Below, piece by piece: positions 18,084-42,996 of a DNA stretch of 64,000 bases (position 1 is the stretch's first letter; the number at the start of each line of letters is the position of its first letter). The DNA comes from a virus, in IMG/VR virus record IMGVR_UViG_3300042881_002516, positions 1 through 64,000 of that record; one strand, written 5' to 3'. A program made the translations under genes and the position numbers. The notes beneath the pieces are model-generated. The model was not told where the DNA came from, ran no database searches, and worked only from the letters and a program-made list of their open reading frames with translations.

Positions 18084-18962
18084 CTACTTGCGCTTCTTGC
18101 CTAGCTTCTTCGAGATGAATTCGCCGTGGTCCTTGCTCATGCTGCCGCCCTTGGCCTTCTTCACGGGCTCATCCAACTTGCCAACAAAGTTCAGGAATGG
18201 CAGACGGGAGCGGAGTTGGATCATCTCATAGGGCAGATCTTCCGTACGACGGATCGTACGATTCGCCTCCCTGTTACGAGCCAAGAATCCCTTACCGTCA
18301 AACATCAACTTGATGTCCGACAGCAACGCTGCCGAAAGGGGTAGGTCTTCTTTGCGCGCTACTCTCGCAGCAAAGTCATTCTTCTCGAGCTTATCGATAA
18401 TGTACGACTCCATGTCCTTCGGAGACACGCCGTACGCCATTGCCATTTGCTCTTCGTAGGGGAGCTTCTTGAAATCATCGCTATCATCCAACAGCGCTTC
18501 ATACAAACCTTTAACGTTGGTTTGATACGCCGGCAGCGACGTCGATCCGTAGATTAGATCGTAGTAGCGATTTGGTATCTCGTCGTTAACCCGCTCGTGA
18601 CGGAACTCATGCGACCACACCTTCGGGTTAGCACGAGTGCCTAATGCAAAGATACGCTTCTCGTCCGGCAGCGACTCGATCTGCTGGTTCAAGCCCCTAC
18701 CCGCAACGCGGTTCATAAGGCTTTCTCGGACCTTCTCCGGAGCTGTCCCCTCGAAGTAGTTCATGCCGCCATAAGGAGAATACAGGTTTTGATCCGGCGC
18801 ACCGATCAACGCAGACTTCGCAACCGTCTCCGGCGACACCAGATCCTTGAACTGATTACCAATCTTTGATCGGATCAAAGCCTCAAACTCCGGGGATCCC
18901 GGAGCACGGCCCTTGAGCTGTTCGTCGAGTTCCTCAAAGTAACGGCGGGTATTCTTTGGCAT
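18084..18962 (-). CDS. HEXXH-motif protein next to portal (metallopeptidase-like)
   Basis: 292 residues. The line VWSHEFRHERVNDE (His118-Glu119-x-x-His122) is a textbook HEXXH zinc site, preceded by IFALGTRANPKV and followed by a helical segment with acidic residues that could give a third ligand. The N-terminal 60 residues are helical (RYFEELDEQLKGRAPGSPEFEALIRSKI). The C-terminus carries KKAKGGSMSKDHGEFISKKLGKKRK, a KGG-type basic tail seen in other virion-region proteins. Candidate roles are head maturation protease or an ejected peptidase. HEXXH alone can occur by chance, so activity is inferred, not shown. It shares one base with the upstream stop. Confidence 0.6.
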   Translation of the reverse strand: MPKNTRRYFEELDEQLKGRAPGSPEFEALIRSKIGNQFKDLVSPETVAKSALIGAPDQNLYSPYGGMNYFEGTAPEKVRESLMNRVAGRGLNQQIESLPDEKRIFALGTRANPKVWSHEFRHERVNDEIPNRYYDLIYGSTSLPAYQTNVKGLYEALLDDSDDFKKLPYEEQMAMAYGVSPKDMESYIIDKLEKNDFAARVARKEDLPLSAALLSDIKLMFDGKGFLARNREANRTIRRTEDLPYEMIQLRSRLPFLNFVGKLDEPVKKAKGGSMSKDHGEFISKKLGKKRK

Positions 18963-21268
18963 CAGCGCTTCTTCCCTTTGACTTCCCCGCCATCGGCAAA
19001 CCGACGCGCGACTAACGGGCCAGCACGATCGAGCGTCGAACGGGTGAGGTTCTTGCGAGTGAGATTGCTCACGTCTTCCTTCTGGCCCTTCACCTGCTCC
19101 ATCAACGCGGCGAGTTGTTCACTCGCTGACCCTTGGTCCGTGGACCCTGATCCTTTGCCAGCGGCTAACGACTCAAGGCTCATGCTCATCGCCTTACCGC
19201 GATCGGTCGCAGCAGACTTCGTAGTGGTGCGCTTCACGCTACGAGCGTTCGGCGACATGCGCACTTCGGTCTTCTCTTGCGCCGGCATGCTCGCGAGCAA
19301 CCGCTCAAGCTCCGCCTTGGCAGAGTCGTCCTTGTCCGCTTCGCCACCTTCGGCAAAGCGCATCAGGCCACCGCCCGGTGCGAGAATCCGATTGCCCAAA
19401 CGATCCGTGTAATAACCCAACCCCTGCACGCCGCCCAAAATAGTGGGCGAGAGGTTCGGGTTGTTGGCCAGCATCTGACCAACCATCGGACCCTTGTACG
19501 ACTGCATCGGATTGATGTTCGAGGGCAACGTGCCAGGGAGCATGGCTCCAGGGACACTGCCAAAGAACTGCGGCTGCCCAGGCGTGTAGGTGATATCCGG
19601 CGCATTGGGAATTGTCACCGGCTTCGGCGGAGTACCTGTCGTCGGGGTGCCAGCGGTTACACCGGTCGTCGGAACGATCGGCGTGGTTCCCGTCCCAGTG
19701 CCACCGGTGTACCCGCCAAGGTCCACGCGGCCACGATTACCACCGAAGAGGTTCTCGTACGCCTTCATCAAATCCGACGGGACCGGAGTGATCTTGCCCG
19801 GCGGAGGAGGAGGAGGCGGGGGTGGAGTAACCGGAGGAGGTGGAGTAACTGGCGGCGGCGGAGTAACCGGCGTCGTCGGCTTCGGCTCGCACTTACCCGT
19901 GGCCGCATTGAAGGCCTGGCCTTCCGGGCAGCCCGTCGGCGTCGTGGTGATCGGCTCGCACTTGCCGGTGACAGTGCTGCGCACCGAGCCTTCCGGGCAG
20001 CCACCCAGGTCGATCGGACGGCACTTACCCGTAGCCGGATCTTGCTCGTAGCCAGGGCCGCACTTCACCTCCGGGGGAGGCGGTGGGGGCGGCGCTCCAA
20101 TCGGCACGCACTTGTTGAGTACCGTGCTGAACACCTGCCCCTCCGGACACTGGTTCGGGGGCGGAGGAGGAGGCGGTGGGGGTGGCGGAGGTGGGGGCGG
20201 TGGCGGAGGCACACACAGCCCGGACACCGGATCCTTGACCAAGCCCGGAGGACAATCCGTAGGCGGAGGTGGGGGCGGTGGCGGAGGAGGTGGTGGTGGG
20301 GGCGGAGGCGGCGGGATCGGCGGACACGCCTGATCTTCCGGAATGACCGATCCGTCCCAACAGGTCTTGGTCTTAACAGGCTGCGCCGGGCACTCTTGAT
20401 CCTCCGGAATGACCGAACCATCCCAACAGGTCTTGGTCTTTTTCTCCGGAGGCGGCTCTTCCTTGTCGTCTTCCTTGCCGACTCGCACGCAACGACCGAG
20501 CTCGTAGTCGAACTCCATGTTCGGAGGACATTGACGCTCGGTCTCACCGGTCGGTACGCACCGGCCTTGATCGAAGTTGTATTCGCTGCCCGGAGGACAG
20601 GTCGGCTTCGCCGGCGTGGTCGTCTCAGGGTTTACGCAAATGCCACGGATCGGGTCGAACACCTCTCCGGCAGGACAGGTCTGATCGGCAATGGTGCCGA
20701 CGTTCGGGATGCTCGTGAAGTCAAAGTTCTGATCGAAGAACGCCGGGTTCACCTTGCCATCCGGCAAGCGCATGTCGAAGAACGGATTGTTCGGATCGCC
20801 AGTGAAGTTGATCGCCGGCTTGTCCTGGTATCCCGCATCACGGAACTGCGCTGCGATGGCGTCGAGATCCGCTTGCGTTACGCCTTCAGGCAGCGTGAAT
20901 GCAGGGGCTTGGCTAATCGGAGGAGCTTCGTTCAGGCCACGCTGCGGAGGCGGTGTGGTCGGCAAACTCGACATGTCGAAGTTCGGATCGAAGATCGGTG
21001 GACGCGTGGGCGATGGCCCTTGGACCGCGAGCAGTTCTTCCAGCGACGTCGGCATCGACATCTCCGGCCCAACCGGAATGGTCGCCGGAACAGCCTGCGT
21101 CTGCGCGAGCTCGGCCAACAGATCCGCAGCCGAGCGGTCAATAGCCGGTGTGTCCGCTGTCAGTTCGGCAACCGGAGTCTCTTCGGCAGGAGCAACGGGA
21201 GCGTCGAGCTCCTCTAGCATCTTCTTGCTTTTGCTCTTGCCCTGGAATGAACGTGGACTAGCCATCAA
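18962..21268 (-). CDS. Cys-rich/polyproline repeat virion-region protein
   Basis: 768 residues. Residues 1-200 are acidic and Pro-rich. From about 205 to 480 there are Cys-pair repeats of the form CP.G..F....G.C (for example CPAGEVFDPIRGIC), two near-identical CWDGSVIPEDQ.CP units, and polyproline runs of up to about 18. The C-terminal part is Gly/Thr/Pro-rich and ends with GGLMRFAEGGEADKD and RRFADGGEVKGKKR. No signal peptide is seen. The polyproline/Cys units look like rigid spacers between small disulphide knots. Located between TerL and the portal gene, it is likely an internal or head-associated virion protein. Function unknown. Confidence 0.65.
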   Translation of the reverse strand: MMASPRSFQGKSKSKKMLEELDAPVAPAEETPVAELTADTPAIDRSAADLLAELAQTQAVPATIPVGPEMSMPTSLEELLAVQGPSPTRPPIFDPNFDMSSLPTTPPPQRGLNEAPPISQAPAFTLPEGVTQADLDAIAAQFRDAGYQDKPAINFTGDPNNPFFDMRLPDGKVNPAFFDQNFDFTSIPNVGTIADQTCPAGEVFDPIRGICVNPETTTPAKPTCPPGSEYNFDQGRCVPTGETERQCPPNMEFDYELGRCVRVGKEDDKEEPPPEKKTKTCWDGSVIPEDQECPAQPVKTKTCWDGSVIPEDQACPPIPPPPPPPPPPPPPPPPPPTDCPPGLVKDPVSGLCVPPPPPPPPPPPPPPPPPPNQCPEGQVFSTVLNKCVPIGAPPPPPPPEVKCGPGYEQDPATGKCRPIDLGGCPEGSVRSTVTGKCEPITTTPTGCPEGQAFNAATGKCEPKPTTPVTPPPPVTPPPPVTPPPPPPPPPGKITPVPSDLMKAYENLFGGNRGRVDLGGYTGGTGTGTTPIVPTTGVTAGTPTTGTPPKPVTIPNAPDITYTPGQPQFFGSVPGAMLPGTLPSNINPMQSYKGPMVGQMLANNPNLSPTILGGVQGLGYYTDRLGNRILAPGGGLMRFAEGGEADKDDSAKAELERLLASMPAQEKTEVRMSPNARSVKRTTTKSAATDRGKAMSMSLESLAAGKGSGSTDQGSASEQLAALMEQVKGQKEDVSNLTRKNLTRSTLDRAGPLVARRFADGGEVKGKKR

Positions 21269-21305: not shown

Positions 21306-22769
21306 TCAATAGTATTCAGGGGCAAGCGCTCGATTTGACGGCTCTCCTACTTCGTCAGTCTGCAAGTTGACGAAATTGCCTTGACGGAAACGCATGATCG
21401 CCTGCGTCGTCGAGTCCACCATGTCGTCGTTATCGCCATTCGGAAACGCCGCGCACTCCTCGACAAGCTCTTCCGCCCAATCCGTATCCGGTGCCCACAC
21501 GAGCCCCGCTTCAAACACCGGTGCTACCGAGTTCGCGCGACTGACCTTATCGGTACCAGACCTACGGCCACCCGGTGTGTACATCGTTACCGGAATGCCA
21601 AGCCGACGCAGCTCCTGCTGCAACGTCACACCGGTCGCCTTCGCCTCGATCAGCACGTTGTCGGGGTTCCAATGCTTGTACTCGTCTTTGGCAATGCGCT
21701 TGAGCTCCGGAAAGTCCCACCGCCCACGCTTGACGTCTAACAGGATGATATTGGGCCCTGAGTCTTGGTCCGGGTAAAACACACCCCAGGTCGTGATCAC
21801 CGAGAAGTCGGCCGTCTCCTTTTTGCTGTAGGCGGTGTCATAGCTCTGGATGATGTAGTTCACGATCGGCGGTTCGTCGTACTGCCACACGCGCCACCAC
21901 TCACGCTTAAGGATCGCACCCTCGTCGTTCGTCGGCTGCTGCTGGTACATGGCGTTCCACTTCTGTACCGACAACGACGCCTTGACCGCCTCCAACTCCT
22001 CCAGTTTCCAAAACTCCGGCCACAAGGGCTTGCCACTTGGCAGGATCGCCGGGAACTCAATGACCTCCCACCGATCCGCGCCGCGACTGGACTGTGCCTT
22101 CAACAACCGCGCCGTCAGGTCCTTGGTCCCCCAACGGGTCATCACGAGCACAATCGCACCGCCCGGCTGCAAACGAGTACGCGGACCGCCCTGGTACCAG
22201 TCCCACGCGTTCTCCAAAGCCAGATCCGACAGGGCGTCTTGCTCCGAATGCGGATCGTCAATAATCAAAATATCGGCACCACGTCCCGTCACCGCACCGC
22301 CGACACCGACCGCAAAGTAACTCCCGCCGTGGTTCGTGTCCCACCGGCCAGCCGCCTTGCTGTCCTGCTTCAACTGCACCTCGGGGAACAACTCCTTGTA
22401 CCGGTCCGAGTCCATCAAATCACGCACTTTACGGCCGAATTTGACGGCTAACTCTGCGGTGTGGGTCGCTTCAAGGGCCTGGGTTCGCGGATCACGGCCC
22501 ATGAGATACGCCGGAAGCAGGTACGAAGCGAACTCCGACTTCGTGTGACGAGGCGGCATGTTCACGATCAGGCGCTTCAAGGTCCCGTTGGCAATGCGAT
22601 CGAACGCAGAAGCCATGCGCTTGTGGTGTTCACCAAGGATCGCGGACGGCCAGACGTAGCGCACGAAGTCGATGAAGTTAGAACGGGCCTTGTCTTGCGT
22701 CTCAAGGAGCATGAGCCGGTATTCCAGCTTGGCACGCTCGATTTCGATTTCCTGGGGGACCGCGCTCAT
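21306..22769 (-). CDS. terL: Terminase large subunit
   Basis: 487 residues from ATG 22769 (MSAVPQEIEIERAKLEY); an in-frame GTG at 22808 would add 13. The ATPase has Walker A NMPPRHTKSEFAS near residue 72 and Walker B DILIIDDPHSEQ near 167, with a coupling motif in VLVMTRWGTKDL. The nuclease domain has YDTAYSKKETADFSV and LIEAKATG, with acidic residues for metal binding, and ends near FPNGDNDDMVDST. It packages DNA into the prohead through the portal. TerS is 6 kb upstream rather than adjacent. A possible promoter with a parS-like palindrome precedes it. A seven-codon reading frame starting at 22793 ends in ATGA at the TerL start. Confidence 0.92.
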   Translation of the reverse strand: MSAVPQEIEIERAKLEYRLMLLETQDKARSNFIDFVRYVWPSAILGEHHKRMASAFDRIANGTLKRLIVNMPPRHTKSEFASYLLPAYLMGRDPRTQALEATHTAELAVKFGRKVRDLMDSDRYKELFPEVQLKQDSKAAGRWDTNHGGSYFAVGVGGAVTGRGADILIIDDPHSEQDALSDLALENAWDWYQGGPRTRLQPGGAIVLVMTRWGTKDLTARLLKAQSSRGADRWEVIEFPAILPSGKPLWPEFWKLEELEAVKASLSVQKWNAMYQQQPTNDEGAILKREWWRVWQYDEPPIVNYIIQSYDTAYSKKETADFSVITTWGVFYPDQDSGPNIILLDVKRGRWDFPELKRIAKDEYKHWNPDNVLIEAKATGVTLQQELRRLGIPVTMYTPGGRRSGTDKVSRANSVAPVFEAGLVWAPDTDWAEELVEECAAFPNGDNDDMVDSTTQAIMRFRQGNFVNLQTDEVGEPSNRALAPEYY

Positions 22770-22809
22770 AGGGTCAAATTGCTTTTCATATGCGCAAAAT
22801 TTTTGCACG

Positions 22810-22825
22810 AGTTGACAAGTTGATC
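22810..22825 (+). repeat. 16-bp inverted repeat, left copy
   Basis: AGTTGACAAGTTGATC reads here on the plus strand and on the minus strand at 28380-28395, so the copies face inward around the accessory island. Each copy contains a tandem AGTTGA and ends in GATC. The other copy also supplies a TTGACA box. It may be a shared regulator site or a scar of insertion. Confidence 0.75.
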
Positions 22826-22859
22826 AACCGGGGCCCTTTTTTCTACCGGGGTGGGGGTG

Positions 22860-22873
22860 GTTCCACGTGGAAC
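22860..22873. promoter_or_regulatory. Perfect 14-bp palindrome, parS-like (GTTCCACGTGGAAC)
   Basis: The 14-base core is identical to the core of bacterial chromosomal parS as known in Pseudomonas-type sites (TGTTCCACGTGGAACA); only the outermost bases differ (G and T here). It lies 90 bases upstream of TerL and overlaps the predicted start of the candidate terL promoter, so an operator is the alternative reading. Confidence 0.7.
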
Positions 22874-23410
22874 TAAAACTATTTTGCAGCACATCCAATG
22901 TGTGAAATCGGGCATTTGCCCCTGCCTTTACGAAGCCGGCCATTTTTTTGAGCCGCCACCCTCAAAGAATTCACCACCAGGGCGAGGAGAAACATACACG
23001 ACCCGCGCGCCACGGCTCGCGGATCACGAACACCGAGCCACGGATCGAGGCCGATCGATCGCGCATCGAGGCCGACGCGCGCCAGCTGTCGGAGCACGCG
23101 CCACGGATCACGAACACCGACCATCGACGACGACAACAGATCACCGATCCGCGATCCGCGCGCCACGGATCGCGGATCACGCCCCGAGGATCGAGGATCC
23201 CGGATCACATACAAAGCAACACGAACCACGGAGCAGGGCGCGAGACCCTCGCGCCAAGCTTGACCGGAGACCAGCCCAGAAGGGCGAGCTCGAGACCGAC
23301 GCTCCCGCTCGAGATCGCACATCACCAGGGCGAGCTCGAGATCACATACCAACTCGCTCCAACGAGACATACCTGGTCAACTCTCAACTCGACAACGAGC
23401 ACCCGATCGC
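22874..23410. other. Noncoding, low-complexity GATC/CACGG-rich region
   Basis: No convincing gene. Thirteen GATC sites lie between 23031 and 23215, about one per 14 bases, with two more by 23343. Degenerate units of the form GCGCCACGGATCRCG with AACACCGA recur near 23020, 23100 and 23162. Further right, units of GGCGAGCTCGAGA recur near 23281 and 23328. Open frames exist on both strands but are Arg-rich consequences of the repeats. Candidate origin, pac or regulator-binding array. Confidence 0.6.
22878..22906 (-). promoter_or_regulatory. Candidate terL promoter
   Basis: On the minus strand TTCACA (22901-22906), 17 bases, AATAGT (22878-22883). The predicted start near 22871 falls within the palindrome. 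Five of six and four of six consensus matches; moderate support. A GGGCA/TGCCC dyad lies just upstream (22910-22921). Confidence 0.45.
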
Positions 23411-23440
23411 CCAAAAGAAAGGGCGCCACATGGGCGCCCT
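23411..23440 (-). terminator. Rho-independent terminator behind the amidotransferase
   Basis: Minus strand AGGGCGCC and GGCGCCCT pair around a 5-base loop, followed by TTCTTTT. It starts about 27 bases beyond the stop and ends the accessory transcript before the GATC-rich region. Confidence 0.85.
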
Positions 23441-23466
23441 CTCCCGCTCGATGAGCTCGTGCTCGA

Positions 23467-24411
23467 TCAGTCAGTCACCCACGGATCGTGCAGGTACACG
23501 CTCGCGCTCGATGGTGGTTCGATGCCTTCGCCCTCGAACCAGTCTGCGATCGTCTCGACGACGAGCTCCGGATCCTTCCATGCGAGCTCGCCGCTCGCGC
23601 CAGTGTTGTCGTCCTCGATGGCATTGATGAGCGCAGCAGCCTTCGACGGAGCATCGAGCACCCACTGGGTGAGTGTTCCCCGGATGTACGAATTGCGCGC
23701 CGCGCGCGTGATACGAGGCAGTGACTCGCCTGATGGCATCGAGCGCGACCGCGAGCTCGAAACGTACGGCTCCAGATCGTCGTCGTCCCACGTGTAGCCC
23801 GACCAGATGCGGCTCGACGTGTAGCGTGTGCTCACCGAGCGCGCGCCCACTCCGAACTTGTGAGCACTCCACGCATACGTGTTCGACAACCATGCACCAC
23901 GGAACTCGACACCGGCCGCACGATTGATGATCACCGCCGACCCGCTCGCTGTCATCATCCCGAACTTGTTCGAGCTTCCGATCAGGCTACCGACGAACGA
24001 CTGCCACGTGGGATCGAGCACGATTGACTCGTCAGCCTCGACGGCCGGCCGAATCACGTTTCTGATGAAGTGCCACGTGTCCGACTTTGATTTGTCCCAC
24101 GCATTACCAGTCGAGAGAATCCCGTTATGTGCGAGCGCAACGCGAGACGTGACGCCGTACGGATGGCAATTCTCGAGATCGATATCGCCATGCGTCTGCA
24201 TGCGCGCATGCCATACAGACTCGCGCCCCTCGATGTGCTCGCGATAAAAGGCGATGAACTGATCGACCGAGGCCGGCAGAGCCTTGACGACAACAAGCTG
24301 ACCGCCGCTTGAATACATGACGCCAATCCCGTCTCGATTGCCCGAATAGACGTCCGCCAAGAACTCATCCGAGAACGTGGTGCTCGATGGCTGATGAACT
24401 AATAAACACAT
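23467..24411 (-). CDS. Class II glutamine amidotransferase-like (Ntn) protein
   Basis: 314 residues from ATG 24411, which places Cys at position 2 as the N-terminal nucleophile of the Ntn fold; GGAGG lies 8 bases upstream. Family lines: SGNRDGIGVMY (23-33), WHARMQTHGDIDLENCHPY (67-85), LAHNGILSTGN (93-103) with the oxyanion Asn-Gly, SDTWHFIRNVI, GSSNKFGMM and AGVEFRGAWLSNTYAWS. The domain ends near 185; the last 130 residues are a low-similarity extension. These proteins release ammonia from glutamine or act on amides. It is encoded behind an amidoligase, a pairing reported for predicted peptide-bond-forming systems in phages and bacteria. Substrate unknown. Confidence 0.87.
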   Translation of the reverse strand: MCLLVHQPSSTTFSDEFLADVYSGNRDGIGVMYSSGGQLVVVKALPASVDQFIAFYREHIEGRESVWHARMQTHGDIDLENCHPYGVTSRVALAHNGILSTGNAWDKSKSDTWHFIRNVIRPAVEADESIVLDPTWQSFVGSLIGSSNKFGMMTASGSAVIINRAAGVEFRGAWLSNTYAWSAHKFGVGARSVSTRYTSSRIWSGYTWDDDDLEPYVSSSRSRSMPSGESLPRITRAARNSYIRGTLTQWVLDAPSKAAALINAIEDDNTGASGELAWKDPELVVETIADWFEGEGIEPPSSASVYLHDPWVTD

Positions 24412-24432
24412 GATAAAAACCTCCAAGACCTG

Positions 24433-25854
24433 TTAGGCCGCCTCTGAATGTTGAAAGAGACCCGCCGTACGATCCGCGACATAGGCGCGCATGACGCGCG
24501 TCTCCGTTTCGAGATGGTTCGCACAGTAGGCCAAGAACGCATGAGCATTGAGCGCGCTCGATCCAGTCTCCGCACGCGCGCAGTATTCAAGAATCGCGTG
24601 CGAGAACTCGATGGCCGAGATCACAGCCTCGTATTTCAACGAACCGCGAAAGATACGAAACTCGATCGTCTCGCGTCCGGTTAGGTTGATCGCCTCGTAC
24701 CGATCGGCCGAGAGATGAGCAGTCTCAACATCCTTTTCCACGACCTTGCAGAACGACGTGGAATACCGCCGGGCGATCGCAGTGATGAAAGCATCATTCC
24801 CCGGATCGTTCACGAACGTGACCGCGCGCGCGATCGTGAGATTCGAGAGCCCGGATCGACTCACGTGGACATGGAGGCCGCACGTCGTCGTTCGATGGCT
24901 GCGGAGGCCTCGAACCAGAGCAGGATCGCGCAGGAACGTGAACAGCTCACGATGAGCCGGCAAGCTCTGCGGATGGGTGATCATCTCGAACCCGCTCGAC
25001 AGACTGCCGTCACGCTCGAAAAAAACATGGCGACCGAACATGCCGCCATTCACTGACTGATGGATGGCGCGCGCCGCCTCTTCTGGATCGCGACTGTAAC
25101 CCTCGACTTCGAGCTCGACGCCCATGTATCGATTGAACTGCCGACACCAGTCATCCGCTCGAAACTCGAACGCACCCTTGGAAGAGTGGTAGCCCTGAAT
25201 AACTCGACGCTCTCGGATGTAATCGACGTGCATGTATATCTCGCGATCATCGTCATATTCAAAATCGTCCGCATCCTGATGAATCAGACACCGATCCCCG
25301 TCCTGATCGATAGCGGGTCGGCTGCTGTCACAGTGCACCCATGCGTCGTGATACTCCGACCACGTGTAGCTGTTGTCCTGGCATGACTCACAGACGAGCT
25401 CGCCGCCGTACGCATCAGCGAGATCGCCCACCGGGAACGACTCGCCGCAGCACTCGCACCCAGAGAAGGAGCCCCACTCGGACAGGCGATCGACCGCATA
25501 ACTGCGATCGTCCTCGACGAACTCCCAACGATAGAACAGGCGCGAGGCCTCGTGACTACTGACCACGTAATCGAGCGACGCCAGATGCCACTCGAGAGAG
25601 GGCGAATAGATGCCCTCCTCTTCAGTAAGCCCAACCACCCGAGTAAGGAACGACCACGGGGTCGAACTGCTAGAACGATGCGCTGCCTCACACAACCCGG
25701 CGAACCACTGCATGCGCTGCCGGAATTGACGGTAACCGCCGAGAGTATTCAGCGGCTTGACGAGCCGATCAGCGATCCGCTGTGCGACTACCTCCCGGCG
25801 ATCTGAATCGGCAAAAACGGCTTGAAAATAGGGCGTTTCGAAAATGTTCGACAT
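24433..25854 (-). CDS. Amidoligase-family (COOH-NH2 ligase) protein with zinc ribbon
   Basis: 473 residues. An N-terminal helical region is followed by a zinc ribbon (C133xxC136, C155xxC158), then an amidoligase domain from about 240 to 425. Key lines: YMGVELEVEGY (metal-binding Glu), ERDGSLSSGFEMITHP, TCGLHVHVSRSGL (HVH), RYEAINLTG and TIEFRIFRGSL. This is the glutamine-synthetase/GCS-like ATP-dependent ligase superfamily that forms amide bonds. With the amidotransferase next to it, the pair is predicted to add or remove amino groups on a peptide or small molecule. The acceptor cannot be read from sequence. The zinc ribbon may recognise nucleic acid or protein. Confidence 0.82.
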   Translation of the reverse strand: MSNIFETPYFQAVFADSDRREVVAQRIADRLVKPLNTLGGYRQFRQRMQWFAGLCEAAHRSSSSTPWSFLTRVVGLTEEEGIYSPSLEWHLASLDYVVSSHEASRLFYRWEFVEDDRSYAVDRLSEWGSFSGCECCGESFPVGDLADAYGGELVCESCQDNSYTWSEYHDAWVHCDSSRPAIDQDGDRCLIHQDADDFEYDDDREIYMHVDYIRERRVIQGYHSSKGAFEFRADDWCRQFNRYMGVELEVEGYSRDPEEAARAIHQSVNGGMFGRHVFFERDGSLSSGFEMITHPQSLPAHRELFTFLRDPALVRGLRSHRTTTCGLHVHVSRSGLSNLTIARAVTFVNDPGNDAFITAIARRYSTSFCKVVEKDVETAHLSADRYEAINLTGRETIEFRIFRGSLKYEAVISAIEFSHAILEYCARAETGSSALNAHAFLAYCANHLETETRVMRAYVADRTAGLFQHSEAA

Positions 25855-25877
25855 TTTGAACCTCTTTCTAACTTTCT

Positions 25878-25893
25878 ATGGGGCAAATCGCCC
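25878..25893. repeat. Leader hairpin ahead of the amidoligase
   Basis: GGGGC and GCCCC arms around a short AT-rich loop, upstream of the ribosome binding region AGAAAGAGG. There is no T-run, so it is more likely RNA structure than a terminator. Confidence 0.4.
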
Positions 25894-25910
25894 CGCCGCC
25901 GATCATAGCA

Positions 25911-25942
25911 AAAAGAAAGGGCGAGACAACAGCCCCGCCCCC
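25911..25942 (-). terminator. Terminator-like hairpin behind the DUF932 gene
   Basis: Minus strand GGGCG/CGCCC stem with an imperfect inner part, followed by TTTCTTTTTG. It lies between the DUF932 protein and the amidoligase and may reduce, not abolish, readthrough. Confidence 0.6.
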
Positions 25943-25970
25943 TCTTTTCTTCGAACGCCTCGATGCTCGA

Positions 25971-27074
25971 TCAGACTACATCGAGCAGCGCTCCCGCCGT
26001 CTCTTCAAACTGGACACGCTCGGCCGTCCACGGAATCGAGCGCGCATAGGCTGTCGCACCAGTCACCGCATCGAACACCGATTCGATTGGCCGTCCCTCC
26101 TCTTCAAGATGTACCGCCGCGATACGCTCGCCGATACGAGCCCCGAACCGACCCGCCAAAAACTGCTCGACCTTATCCAGCTTCGACGACTGTGCAGATC
26201 GCAGCACTGTTGTGATGTTCGACGAGCTCGCGCGCGAGTATTCAAGCAGTGCAGGAGCCGCCTCCTCGATGAACCGATCCGGAGCACTGGCAGTGTGACG
26301 GATCGAGATGCTCTCCAACTCATGCGCGCCCCAGACAATCCGATTTTTGCAAACGTAATCGAATAGGAATGTTTTGATTTTCAGAGCACCCGCGCCGACT
26401 TCCGAATTTGTGACAAAGAACCCACGCGCGAGCGCGCCCGTTTTGCCGTCACGCCTGTTAGGTAACTCGATCCGATTCTGCTCATCGGCAAGGAACACGA
26501 ACATGTCACGATCACTCGCAAACAATGTCGTGTTGTCTCGCGTGACTTCTGCAAGGCCTTTTCCAAACTCTCCCGGCACTCGAAAGTCACCAGTCACACC
26601 ATCACCAAATCGATCCTCGAGGGCGCGCACTACATCCGAGTTCCAGATGCGACCATATCGCGCACCAGTGGCCGCGCGGACTTCGAGGGCTTTCTGGTTT
26701 TCGCCCGTGTACAACATCCCAACATCGGCCGCATCTCGCTCAACCTTCAAACCATAATTGAGGCAATCGGCAACAAGCGGAGCCGGTAACGTCCGCAGAT
26801 AACTAGCCGGTGCTCCCGACAGGCTCGCCAACTGGCCGAACGCCCAATTTGACGGAGCTGCCGTCCTGCCGTTGGAGTCTTGGATCAAAATGCCGCGAGA
26901 GTATCCGCGCTCGTCATTGACTGGAACGGCCGTGAGACTGCGAGAGCTTACGACCGAGGCATGCGACAACTCGCGCACCTGTTCGAGCATGGCGCGCATG
27001 GCCGGTAATGACGTGAACCGCTCTTCTGGTGGACGTGTTGCCCACTGCCGCGAGGCATCCATTAACGTCGTCAT
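25971..27074 (-). CDS. DUF932-domain protein
   Basis: 367 residues from ATG 27074, with GGAGG nine bases upstream; the preceding stop is two bases away. The lines FGQLASLSGAPASYLRTLPAPLVADCLNYGL, GARYGRIWNSDVVRALEDRFGD, LFASDRDMFVFLADE, GFFVTNSEVGAGALKIKTFLFDYVCKNRIVWGA and the following long helix are diagnostic of the DUF932/TIGR03299 family of phages and plasmids. Its biochemical role is unknown; some relatives accompany replication or anti-restriction genes. It is the second gene of the unit starting at the promoter near 27313. Confidence 0.85.
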   Translation of the reverse strand: MTTLMDASRQWATRPPEERFTSLPAMRAMLEQVRELSHASVVSSRSLTAVPVNDERGYSRGILIQDSNGRTAAPSNWAFGQLASLSGAPASYLRTLPAPLVADCLNYGLKVERDAADVGMLYTGENQKALEVRAATGARYGRIWNSDVVRALEDRFGDGVTGDFRVPGEFGKGLAEVTRDNTTLFASDRDMFVFLADEQNRIELPNRRDGKTGALARGFFVTNSEVGAGALKIKTFLFDYVCKNRIVWGAHELESISIRHTASAPDRFIEEAAPALLEYSRASSSNITTVLRSAQSSKLDKVEQFLAGRFGARIGERIAAVHLEEEGRPIESVFDAVTGATAYARSIPWTAERVQFEETAGALLDVV

Positions 27075-27075
27075 A

Positions 27076-27267
27076 TTAGTTTGCCTCCTGCTTCGATCGC
27101 ATCCACGCTTCGAGAACGACGCGCGCCTCATGCTTCGAGAGCATGAAAGCATCCGCGAGTATCGGCGCCGCGCCGAACATGTTGACGCTGCCGCCTTCCC
27201 TCAAAGAATCCAAAAACCGGAACGCTGCGGGAGCGATCGCCGGCCTGTTACTTACTAACTCGGACAT
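27076..27267 (-). CDS. Small partner of DUF932 protein
   Basis: 63 residues (MSELVSNRPAIAPAAFRFLDSL), helical, with LSKHEARVVLEAWMRSKQ at the C-terminus resembling a short helix-turn-helix. It has a good ribosome site (AGGAGAAAG) and is the first gene after the promoter and hairpin near 27300. Small proteins of this kind frequently precede DUF932 genes. Function unknown. Confidence 0.65.
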   Translation of the reverse strand: MSELVSNRPAIAPAAFRFLDSLREGGSVNMFGAAPILADAFMLSKHEARVVLEAWMRSKQEAN

Positions 27268-27288
27268 TTTGACTTTCTCCTGTATATG

Positions 27289-27305
27289 CCACCAATGGGT
27301 GGTGG
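27289..27305. promoter_or_regulatory. Hairpin/operator CCACCA-N5-TGGTGG at promoter start
   Basis: Perfect six-base arms, positioned at about +1 to +17 of the transcript expected from the adjacent promoter and just ahead of the ribosome site. Could be an operator for a dimeric repressor or a translation-control hairpin. Confidence 0.55.
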
Positions 27306-27312
27306 ACTTTCT

Positions 27313-27340
27313 AAAATACGCTCATCCTTCGGCCTGTCAA
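27313..27340 (-). promoter_or_regulatory. Sigma70-type promoter for the amidoligase unit
   Basis: Minus strand TTGACA (27335-27340), 16 bases, TATTTT (27313-27318). The -35 is a full consensus match. It points at the small gene, DUF932, amidoligase and amidotransferase. Confidence 0.7.
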
Positions 27341-27447
27341 CTACCCGCCCAAAATCTTATGGATGAGCCAGTAGCCGAACAGCTTAAAAACGGTTTTGAA
27401 AAACTGCTTTTCTGCATCCCTCGGTTTTGGTGGAAGTGTGCCAGGCT

Positions 27448-27657
27448 TCAGAGTGGACTCGCGTCCCTCCCACCTTGGCATGGTTCCTCCTCATACTGTT
27501 CAACCAATCGACGCGCGCGGCTAACCGCCACACGACGAATGCGAATGATATCGGCCAGTGGCCGCTCGTTGCTGTCGCTGTAGTCAGGCATCGCGAGTAA
27601 CTCCTTGATGGCACCGAGTAGATCGGCCGTCCGCTTGTCATGCTTTAGCAGTGTCAT
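27448..27657 (-). CDS. Small protein of the tiny-gene operon
   Basis: 69 residues (MTLLKHDKRTADLLGAIKELL). Helical, basic, with DIIRIRRVAVSRARRLVEQYEEE. Its start shares ATGA with the stop of the 48-residue HTH-like gene. A longer frame to 27641 in another phase was rejected as a shadow. Unknown function; last gene of the operon. Confidence 0.65.
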   Translation of the reverse strand: MTLLKHDKRTADLLGAIKELLAMPDYSDSNERPLADIIRIRRVAVSRARRLVEQYEEEPCQGGRDASPL

Positions 27658-27800
27658 GGCTTCTCTTCCTCCGACTCCTCAAACGCTGCGATCACCTCAT
27701 GCACCATGAGCAAAGAGATTCCTAGCGACTCGGCGATCTCCTGCTCTTTCATGCCGTCCTCATAGTACATGTCGATAATTTGTAAATCCGTCCAGTTCAT
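27654..27800 (-). CDS. 48-residue helix-turn-helix-like protein
   Basis: Starts MNWTDLQIIDMYYEDGMKEQ; the segment MKEQEIAESLGISLLMVHEVIAAF has the spacing of a helix-turn-helix (AES-LGIS-recognition helix). Both ends overlap neighbours as ATGA, supporting translation. Its size and location make it a candidate regulator of the local palindromic operators. Confidence 0.65.
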   Translation of the reverse strand: MNWTDLQIIDMYYEDGMKEQEIAESLGISLLMVHEVIAAFEESEEEKP

Positions 27801-27982
27801 GCGGCCTCCCCTGTGGCCTTGGCGATGACGGCGCGTAGGGTGTCAACGGCGGCAATTACGTCAGCGTCGCATTCATCCATCGGGTTTCCGTGATAGTCAT
27901 ATTCAAGCCGTGCGTTTTCTAGCGCGTGCAGCGCCATTTGCAGGGCGGCGAGCAAATCAGGGGTTGAAGCGTGGCGGCTCAT
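27797..27982 (-). CDS. Small helical protein
   Basis: 61 residues (MSRHASTPDLLAALQMALHALE), mostly helix, with acid-rich MDECDADVIAAVDTL. Coupled at both ends by ATGA. It shares the pattern of LLxALxxAL helices with the 49-residue protein at the head of the operon. No family recognised. Confidence 0.65.
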   Translation of the reverse strand: MSRHASTPDLLAALQMALHALENARLEYDYHGNPMDECDADVIAAVDTLRAVIAKATGEAA

Positions 27983-28170
27983 GACTGCACCTCTTCGATG
28001 TCGTTGATGAAGTCCTCCATGTGAACAAGGCCGAACTCCGTGAAAGCCTCTTCATTTTCGTTCCACGTGGCCAGAGCAATATCACTGGCCTGCTCTTTCG
28101 AATCGGCCTCGATCTCTAACTGGTACACGGTGTGCTCTATTCGAACGAGCGAAATCCTAAACTTTTTCAT
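27979..28170 (-). CDS. Small acidic protein
   Basis: 63 residues from ATG 28170 (MKKFRISLVRIEHTVYQLEIEA). An alpha/beta single domain with a strongly acidic C-terminal half. The pattern of a beta hairpin followed by KEQASDIALATWNE resembles small phage proteins found in early regions. A longer frame to 28254 lies within the preceding gene. Function unknown. Confidence 0.65.
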   Translation of the reverse strand: MKKFRISLVRIEHTVYQLEIEADSKEQASDIALATWNENEEAFTEFGLVHMEDFINDIEEVQS

Positions 28171-28316
28171 GGCTGCACCTCCATAGCGCGCAGCACGCGC
28201 TCGAGCTCGGAGCAAACCTTGTAACTGTTCTCTGCTCCCGGAACTCGAAAACAAGGGGCGCTGTTCAACGCACGCAACGCAAGCCGCAATACGGCTATGA
28301 CTTCTGCCTTATCCAC
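28167..28316 (-). CDS. Tiny GTG-start protein heading the operon
   Basis: 49 residues with a GTG start (VDKAEVIAVLRLALRALNSA). AGGAG is 6 bases upstream, and the stop shares ATGA with the next gene. An ATG two bases earlier leads only to a short dead frame. The start region reads TTATCCACA on the plus strand, which is a DnaA-box sequence but here is coding. Confidence 0.6.
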   Translation of the reverse strand: MDKAEVIAVLRLALRALNSAPCFRVPGAENSYKVCSELERVLRAMEVQP

Positions 28317-28339
28317 ATGAATCTCCTTTCTGCTTTCTA

Positions 28340-28357
28340 GCTAGGAACATTCCTAGC
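28340..28357. promoter_or_regulatory. Palindromic operator GCTAGGAA-CA-TTCCTAGC
   Basis: Eight-base perfect arms separated by two bases. On the minus strand it covers about +1 to +18 of the predicted transcript of the tiny-gene operon and precedes TAGAAAGCAGAAAGGAG. The geometry matches a repressor operator. Confidence 0.65.
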
Positions 28358-28364
28358 GTCGGCG

Positions 28365-28393
28365 AACCTACCCCGCCTCGATCAACTTGTCAA
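28365..28393 (-). promoter_or_regulatory. Candidate promoter of the tiny-gene operon
   Basis: TTGACA (28388-28393), 17 bases, TAGGTT (28365-28370) on the minus strand. The -35 is part of the 16-bp inverted repeat. The weak -10 suggests activator help or a different sigma requirement. Confidence 0.5.
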
Positions 28394-41491: not shown

Positions 41492-41520
41492 AGTGTAGAC
41501 TCGCGTTTCAGGGATTGCAA
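41492..41520 (-). promoter_or_regulatory. Candidate early promoter (replication unit)
   Basis: Minus strand TTGCAA (41515-41520), 17 bases, TACACT (41492-41497), pointing at the 41466 gene. It lies in the gap between divergent units. TGATCA at 41487-41492 overlaps the start region. No comparably good plus-strand promoter was seen. Confidence 0.5.
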
Positions 41521-41544
41521 CCCCTGCTAGAAAGCGAGATCAAC

Positions 41545-42996
41545 ATGAGCCAATTTTTACAGACTTACCGATTCAAAAACAAGCCGTTTGCGCATCAAGC
41601 TGCTTACCTTCAACGCTTTTGGGATCACCAAGTAGCGGCACTGTTCGCCGATATGGGAACGGGCAAGAGCTTCATGCTCATCAATAATATAGCAATGCTT
41701 TACGACCAGGGCCGCATCAATGCCGTCCTGATCGTCGCACCAAAGGGCGTGTACCGCAACTGGGTAGACACCGAAATACCCAAGCACATGCCTGAACACG
41801 TGGTCTACCGTGTAGCGCTGTGGTCAGCAACGCCACGCAAGGCGGAGCAGCAGGCGCTTGATTCGATGTTCGAGATCACCGAAGACCTGAAGATTCTGGT
41901 GATGAACATTGAGGCGTTCTCAACGCCACGCGGCACGAAGTTCGCTCAAAGGTTTTTGTTCGTGCACAACGCGATGATGGCTATCGATGAGTCGACGACC
42001 ATCAAAACGCCAAATAGCAAACGAAGCAAAAACACTGAAAAAACAGGCAAAATGGCGAAGTATCGCCGCATCATGACAGGCTCTCCGGTGACCAAATCAC
42101 CGATGGACCTGTACCAGCAATGCGCCTTCCTATCGGATGCCTGCCTCGACTCGCCTTCGTACTATGCGTTCCAAGCGCGCTACGCGGTCGTCGTCGAGCG
42201 ACGCTTGGCGAGCCACAGCTTCAAACAAATCGTCGGCTATCGAAAGCTCGATGAGCTCAAAGAGAAGCTTGATCGGTTCAGCTTCCGCGTGAAAAAGGAA
42301 GAGTGCCTGGACCTTCCAGACAAGTTATACGTGAAGCGTGAGGTCGATCTCACAGACGAGCAGGCTCGTGCCTATGAGCAGATGAAGGTCATGGCATTAG
42401 CGCAGTTCGAGCAGGGCATGATGTCCACAGTTAATGCACTGACGCAGTTGATGCGTTTGCATCAGATCACCTGTGGTCACGTGAAGCTGGATAACGGCAC
42501 GATCATGTCCTTGCCGAACAAGCGCATCGACGAGCTCCTGGCCATCGTCGAAGAGACCGACGGCAAGATGATCATCTGGGCCACGTACCGCCATGACATC
42601 GACGCCATCAAGATCGCCCTACAGAAAGACTACGGCATGGAGAGTGTCGGCACGTACTACGGCGATACCGAGGAAGACGAGCGGCAGCGGGTCGTGGCGG
42701 AGTTCCAGAACCCGGAGAGCAAACTACGCTTTTTCGTAGGCAATCCCAGCACTGGTGGCTACGGCCTGACACTGACAGCGGCCAACGTGGTCGTGTACTA
42801 CAGCAATAGCTTTGACCTTGAGAAGCGGTTGCAGTCGGAGGATCGCGCGCACCGTATCGGCCAGACCAAAAACGTGACGTACATCGACTTGATCGCCGTC
42901 AAGACGATCGACGAGAAGATCGTAAAGGCACTGCGGGATAAGATCGACATCTCGACCCAAGTGCTCGGAGAGGAGGTAAAGAAATGGTTGATCTGA
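41545..42996 (+). CDS. SNF2/SF2-type DNA helicase
   Basis: 483 residues from ATG 41545 (MSQFLQTYRFKNKPFAHQAA). Walker A LFADMGTGKSFML near residue 35; motif II MMAIDESTTIKTPNSKRSK; motif III MTGSPVTKSP; C-terminal half with KMIIWATYRHDIDAIKIAL, GNPSTGGYGLTLTAANVVVYYSNSFDLEKRLQSEDRAHRIGQTKNVTYIDL, which is the SNF2 helicase-C signature. Such phage proteins are likely dsDNA translocases in recombination or replication fork handling. Plus-strand, opposite to the replication unit, and overlapping the exonuclease by 13 bases. Confidence 0.9.
   Translation: MSQFLQTYRFKNKPFAHQAAYLQRFWDHQVAALFADMGTGKSFMLINNIAMLYDQGRINAVLIVAPKGVYRNWVDTEIPKHMPEHVVYRVALWSATPRKAEQQALDSMFEITEDLKILVMNIEAFSTPRGTKFAQRFLFVHNAMMAIDESTTIKTPNSKRSKNTEKTGKMAKYRRIMTGSPVTKSPMDLYQQCAFLSDACLDSPSYYAFQARYAVVVERRLASHSFKQIVGYRKLDELKEKLDRFSFRVKKEECLDLPDKLYVKREVDLTDEQARAYEQMKVMALAQFEQGMMSTVNALTQLMRLHQITCGHVKLDNGTIMSLPNKRIDELLAIVEETDGKMIIWATYRHDIDAIKIALQKDYGMESVGTYYGDTEEDERQRVVAEFQNPESKLRFFVGNPSTGGYGLTLTAANVVVYYSNSFDLEKRLQSEDRAHRIGQTKNVTYIDLIAVKTIDEKIVKALRDKIDISTQVLGEEVKKWLI

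Follow-up and report, generated by a model that had tools for sequence, protein, structure and literature searches.

An amidoligase and a glutamine amidotransferase as a probable two-gene amide-bond cassette of a freshwater phage, apart from the neighbouring DUF932 gene

Introduction

The question raised by this locus is whether four adjacent phage genes belong to one system or only share a place on the chromosome. The locus lies in a stretch of 64,000 nucleotides (the window; positions 1 to 64,000 of the IMG/VR record IMGVR_UViG_3300042881_002516, which has 65,292 bases) from a freshwater phage. On the minus strand a 63-amino-acid open reading frame (63-aa ORF), a gene for a DUF932 protein, an amidoligase gene (AML) and a gene for a glutamine amidotransferase-type protein (GAT) are followed by the terminase gene TerL (21306-22808); all four genes are real. 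An earlier reading of this DNA from its letters alone, below called the sequence-only reading, postulated that the four genes form one peptide-bond module in a combination that might be new. We find that AML followed by GAT is the actual unit, a self-contained two-gene cassette. That this cassette deals with amide bonds and does so without DUF932 is in our judgement probable; its benefit to the element which carries it is far less certain.

The two enzymes

GAT (23467..24411, minus strand, 314 aa) scores 24.2 bits against PF13230 in a profile search (cut-off 23), and its profile matches in the PDB are the glutaminase domains of GlmS and PurF. The protein starts with Met-Cys, preceded by GGAGG, and in an alignment of 51 homologues Cys2, Arg70, Thr73, Asn96-Gly97 and Asp111 are invariant and His74 is found in at least 90%. 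With a Cys after the initiator Met and the Arg, Thr, Asn-Gly and Asp residues of a glutamine site, GAT is predicted to be a class II glutamine amidotransferase of the N-terminal nucleophile (Ntn) type, as had been claimed. Because the glutamine-site residues are conserved, the substrate would be expected to have a free gamma-glutamyl moiety, i.e., to be glutamine or a gamma-glutamyl amide. Such a substrate is compatible both with feeding of ammonia to AML and with hydrolysis of the AML product.

AML (24433..25854, minus strand, 473 aa) has an N-terminal helical domain, a zinc ribbon and a ligase domain with glutamine synthetase (GS) fold (aa 243-473). The match to PF12224 (Amidoligase_2) is 29.2 bits at a cut-off of 22; sequence searches of AML against the PDB gave no convincing match. 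Among 59 aligned homologues Glu247/Glu249, Asp282, Ser284, Glu290, His328-x-His330 and Glu398-x-Arg400 are invariant and Gly283 occurs in at least 90%. The predicted model (mean predicted local distance difference test, pLDDT, 92; predicted template modelling score, pTM, 0.63) was compared to known structures with Foldseek, which gave E=7e-5 for glutamine synthetase and a probability of 1.00 for GmaS, Dop, PafA and YbdK. The modelled fold and the conserved Glu/His/Arg site thus place AML, as a prediction, in the GS-like COOH-NH2 ligase superfamily, and the Glu, HVH and EFR motifs described in the sequence-only reading are confirmed. Judged by their residues, both enzymes look intact.

The pairing of AML and GAT

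Of 78 phage-type loci, most of which come from one scan, 76 have GAT as the next gene after AML in the same orientation; in bacterial genomes this holds for 67 of 80 loci, and several of the remainder are near contig ends. The pairwise distances of the two proteins are correlated with a coefficient of 0.93 over 129 loci, a value inflated by shared ancestry; none of 2000 permutations was as high, and phages alone also give 0.93. With catalytic residues conserved, a fold shared with GS, PafA, Dop and YbdK, and a nearly universal pairing, the amide-bond part of the module that had been proposed holds good. Two loci, L085 and L097 in our numbering of the compared loci, have two AML genes around a GAT.

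The pair is not confined to phages. Ruminococcus-type loci have genes for DUF960, tyrosine integrase, relaxase and resolvase nearby, a Polynucleobacter pair has an integrase and a relaxase nearby, and several R. flavefaciens assemblies carry more than one copy. Since such genes are its neighbours, the AML-GAT pair is apparently carried by mobile elements. Its multiple copies in Ruminococcus and the relaxases nearby suggest that it is an unrecognised cargo of integrative elements.

Separation from DUF932

The DUF932 protein (25971..27074, minus strand, 367 aa) matches PF06067 with 30.3 bits (profile cut-off 23) and phrog_1362 with E=2e-45, and the 63-aa ORF (27076..27267, minus strand) ends at its start; the presence of both had been read correctly. 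An AlphaFold model of the DUF932 protein (pLDDT 79) found no PDB match at E<=0.001. Weak matches of RPA, LEF-3 and RAD52-like type, with probabilities of at most 0.2, were considered for its function and were not used.

The sequence-only reading put all four genes under one promoter with a palindrome at +1 and closed them with a terminator. The outer signals are there. Upstream of the 63-aa ORF we predict a sigma70-type promoter (TTGACA-16-TATTTT, 27313..27340; like all signals given here on the minus strand) with a palindrome at the start site of the transcript (27289..27305) which has a predicted stem and is conserved, and after GAT there is an inverted repeat forming a terminator-like hairpin (23417..23443, -24 kcal/mol) which was not listed by the terminator scan and is conserved in 8 loci. 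The single unit, however, is at variance with what lies inside it. Between DUF932 and AML a second terminator-like hairpin is found (25911..25948), with a stem of about 18 bp, a T-rich tail and a folding energy of -28.2 kcal/mol, of which the scan listed the part 25941-25923. Its 3' arm is overlapped by a predicted sigma70-type promoter of AML-GAT (TTGTCT-16-TATGAT with TG before the -10, 25902..25929), and next comes a putative 5'-leader or start palindrome, GGGGCGATTTGCCCC, at 25880..25894, which has a predicted stem and is kept in 11 loci. It should be noted that the numbers of promoters and terminators from the scan barely exceed those in shuffled sequences and that the support for these signals is their conservation among loci: the hairpin between DUF932 and AML and the AML-GAT promoter are nearly unchanged in all 11 related loci compared. 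Because this terminator hairpin and second promoter are conserved, 63-aa ORF-DUF932 and AML-GAT are predicted to be two transcription units.

The gene content of close relatives agrees with two units. We compared eleven of them (L002-L012), whose terminases are 99-100% identical where the gene is on the contig. The 63-aa ORF and DUF932 are present in L002, L009, L010 and L012, and L004 has both together with a 51-aa ORF; in L007, L008 and L011 only the 63-aa and 51-aa ORFs are left and DUF932 is gone, and L005 and L006 have neither the 63-aa ORF nor DUF932. AML is kept in all eleven and GAT in nine, the contigs of L011 and L012 stopping inside AML. Thus five near-identical relatives (L005-L008 and L011) retain AML in the absence of DUF932.

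The interval from the nuclease gene to TerL (22808-28390) is a site of variable cargo and exchange. A wider survey of this interval found neither gene, DUF932 alone, AML alone, and the two in either order, and 33 of the 38 intervals from a DUF932 scan hold DUF932 without AML, but these samples were chosen by the query and do not give frequencies. A TerL survey that was intended as an unbiased sample yielded mainly more distant phages. DUF932 was absent from the 80 AML loci in bacterial genomes. In the relatives L185, L103 and L144 the same interval has genes of other kinds (ArdC-type anti-restriction, in L185, PAPS-reductase-like and DUF7227).

The hypothesis that DUF932 and the small ORF share a pathway with the two enzymes can draw on the adjacency and common orientation of the four genes in the window, on loci where DUF932 likewise adjoins AML (L026-L033, L035, L038) and on two with the order AML-GAT-DUF932 (L046, L058). 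Against it stand the terminator and promoter separating the units, the five relatives that do without DUF932, the many DUF932 intervals lacking AML and the bacterial AML loci lacking DUF932, and we hold it to be highly improbable. A four-gene operon is rejected on the grounds of the separate signals, the loss of DUF932 in relatives and the interval survey. DUF932 is placed outside the pair because its signals are separate, because among near-identical phages it may be kept, replaced or lost and because elsewhere it occurs mostly without AML; with the 63-aa ORF it is a second unit, unrelated to AML-GAT, in the same variable interval. The neighbourhood survey which the sequence-only reading had suggested for amidoligase plus DUF932 divides the four genes into two independent parts, and the novelty seen in their combination falls by the refuting condition which that reading had itself set, as the genes generally fail to co-occur and conserved signals split their transcription. 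Taking DUF932 out of the cassette avoids a false functional assignment for the DUF932 family.

What AML may recognise

The zinc ribbon claimed for AML is present, with Cys133-x2-Cys136 and Cys155-x2-Cys158 (25381..25458, minus strand). In the 59 homologues C158 is invariant, and C136 and C155 are each found in at least 90%. Ahead of the ligase domain the number of CxxC/H motifs in AML relatives ranges from none to about ten, tandem arrays included; since this count took each frame as the whole span between two stops, a few of the motifs may precede the actual start. One relative from Ruminococcus (L315) matches LIM, PF00412, above the cut-off. Pairs with zinc-array AML proteins were seen near DUF960, integrase, resolvase and relaxase genes in Ruminococcus and other Clostridia (L259-L335), several of these genomes being multi-copy. 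In a Mucilaginibacter AML (L275:7389-8771) a long repeat of the GFNADGFDEDG type replaces the zinc modules.

A second feature of the N-terminal part is a hypervariable segment (aa 58-86; 25597..25683, minus strand). Between AML proteins of near-identical phages its rate of nonsynonymous substitution (dN) is 0.37-0.64, compared to 0.01-0.03 in the ligase domain; the ratio to synonymous substitution (dN/dS) remains below 1. The divergence may stem from recombination between alleles. Taken together, the zinc ribbon or arrays and the fast-evolving N-terminal segment suggest that AML recognises a macromolecular target.

The alternative, in which AML-GAT makes a gamma-glutamyl or amide metabolite and modifies no macromolecule, is consistent with the presence of the small-molecule ligases GmaS and YbdK among the structural matches. 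The zinc ribbon, the LIM-like arrays and the fast-evolving segment speak against it, as does the lack of any recurring biosynthetic partner among the neighbours, and we regard it as unlikely.

The reaction and its use

The most likely explanation is that AML forms an amide, perhaps of gamma-glutamyl type, on a protein or peptide and that GAT, by hydrolysis of either glutamine or a gamma-glutamyl amide, feeds or reverses the ligation. AML would spend ATP to activate a carboxylate, in the form of an acyl phosphate, and then couple it to an amine or to ammonia, and its zinc ribbon and variable N-terminal domain would serve to bind a target that is probably a protein or peptide. The N-terminal Cys of GAT would cut glutamine or a gamma-glutamyl amide, with which GAT would either supply ammonia to AML or remove the gamma-glutamyl amides made by AML, in the manner of EgtC, which acts after EgtA. 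The element might benefit through a modified host target, for instance a wall peptide or a protein, which would hinder competing elements.

Within this explanation the role of GAT can be formulated in two ways. Ammonia from GAT could be put by AML onto a carboxylate of a peptidoglycan peptide or a protein, with an outcome that would be analogous to amidation of the MurT/GatD or AsnB type. The conserved glutamine site, the GlmS-like domain and the strict pairing and co-inheritance favour this; it is weakened by the ability of GS-fold ligases to use free ammonia and by AML and GAT being separate polypeptides with no fusion or known tunnel. Or AML could add a glutamate or gamma-glutamyl-type group and GAT hydrolyse that same amide, by the logic of EgtA/EgtC or PafA/Dop. 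EgtA/EgtC of ergothioneine synthesis do combine a GS-fold ligase with a class II Ntn amidohydrolase, PafA and Dop are among the structural matches of AML, and the cousin cassettes of phiEco32 and LUZ24 come with a gamma-glutamyl cyclotransferase; on the other side, direct evidence on the substrate is lacking and the cyclotransferase is unmatched in the window record. We rate the two formulations equally and hold each only tentatively; neither requires DUF932.

A bolder version postulates an undescribed protein modification system of mobile elements, in which LIM-like zinc modules pick a protein, the GS-fold enzyme links this protein to an amine or amino acid, and the Ntn hydrolase feeds the reaction or removes the mark, in conflicts between phage, element and host. 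We think this doubtful.

Several points weigh against the explanation we prefer. For this subfamily neither a substrate nor an activity is known. Free ammonia can serve GS-fold enzymes as substrate, and AML would thus not need to be fed by a glutamine amidotransferase; none of the surveyed loci showed an AML-GAT fusion. The correlation of distances owes part of its height to common descent, the window AML has one clear zinc ribbon and the LIM match comes from one bacterial relative. Finally, presence on mobile elements is no proof of a role in conflict.

Other features of the window

Between GAT and TerL (22850-23460) there is an apparently noncoding, repetitive stretch rich in CGGATC, also found in relatives such as L008. 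Downstream of TerL (18962-21268) a 768-aa protein has polyproline runs and repeated Cys-Pro motifs, and a SNF2-type helicase ORF (41515-42996) lies on the plus strand amid minus-strand genes. Other genes match Pam3-type phage proteins, an SU10 adaptor, family A DNA polymerase and a TOTE-type primase, and the closest named terminase to that of the window is from Phage DSL-LC04 (75.6%). PADLOC gave no match and NCBIfam no score above its curated cut-offs.

Comparison with known systems

EgtA/EgtC are of the same enzyme types as the window pair and act in a different pathway, so that the likeness would be a mechanistic analogy only. PafA/Dop of pupylation share the GS-type fold of AML, and that system is not known to have a glutamine amidotransferase.

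Amidoligase plus glutamine amidotransferase is an already established phage gene pair. It was listed in OM43 phages (PMC10580990), and a larger gene set has been named "peptidoglycan modification cassette" (PMC5498523). In the mycobacteriophages Marvin and MosMoris (gp105-106 and gp108-109), the OM43 phages MEP401/402 and the podovirus MW202733, all from other phage families, the two genes stand in the order found in the window, with 24-36% identity over full alignments and, unlike in the window, no adjacent DUF932.

Amidoligase followed by class II amidotransferase is also the order in the cassettes of phiEco32, LUZ24, PaP3, tf and PSA-HP1. These cousins have for years been labelled as cell-wall modification against superinfection, which is a proposal, put forward for phiEco32 by Iyer 2009 as far as the citation in PMC10580990 goes; the superinfection and cell-wall roles considered in the sequence-only reading are thus a possible function already published for phiEco32/LUZ24-type cassettes. 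The phiEco32 ligase is a remote homologue of the window AML (hhalign 95%), as are the amidotransferases of each other, and the profile match of the LUZ24 ligase (10%) is not significant. Both ligases are devoid of CxxC zinc motifs, in contrast to the zinc ribbon of the window AML, and both genomes add RimK-type and gamma-glutamyl cyclotransferase genes. In the window record, which is possibly incomplete, neither the cyclotransferase (PF06094; control matched in 9/14) nor a RimK/ATP-grasp ligase (PF08443; control matched in 13/14) gave a match, and the second ligase (PF14395) was unmatched there and likewise in the control. Since the ligase is remote and cyclotransferase and RimK are unmatched, the window pair is a variant and not a member of the full phiEco32/LUZ24 cassette; it is a distant, reduced relative. 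This minimal form, two genes with their own predicted promoter and terminator, with zinc modules as the probable targeting part and with neither cyclotransferase nor RimK, makes the question of what such cassettes do a testable one.

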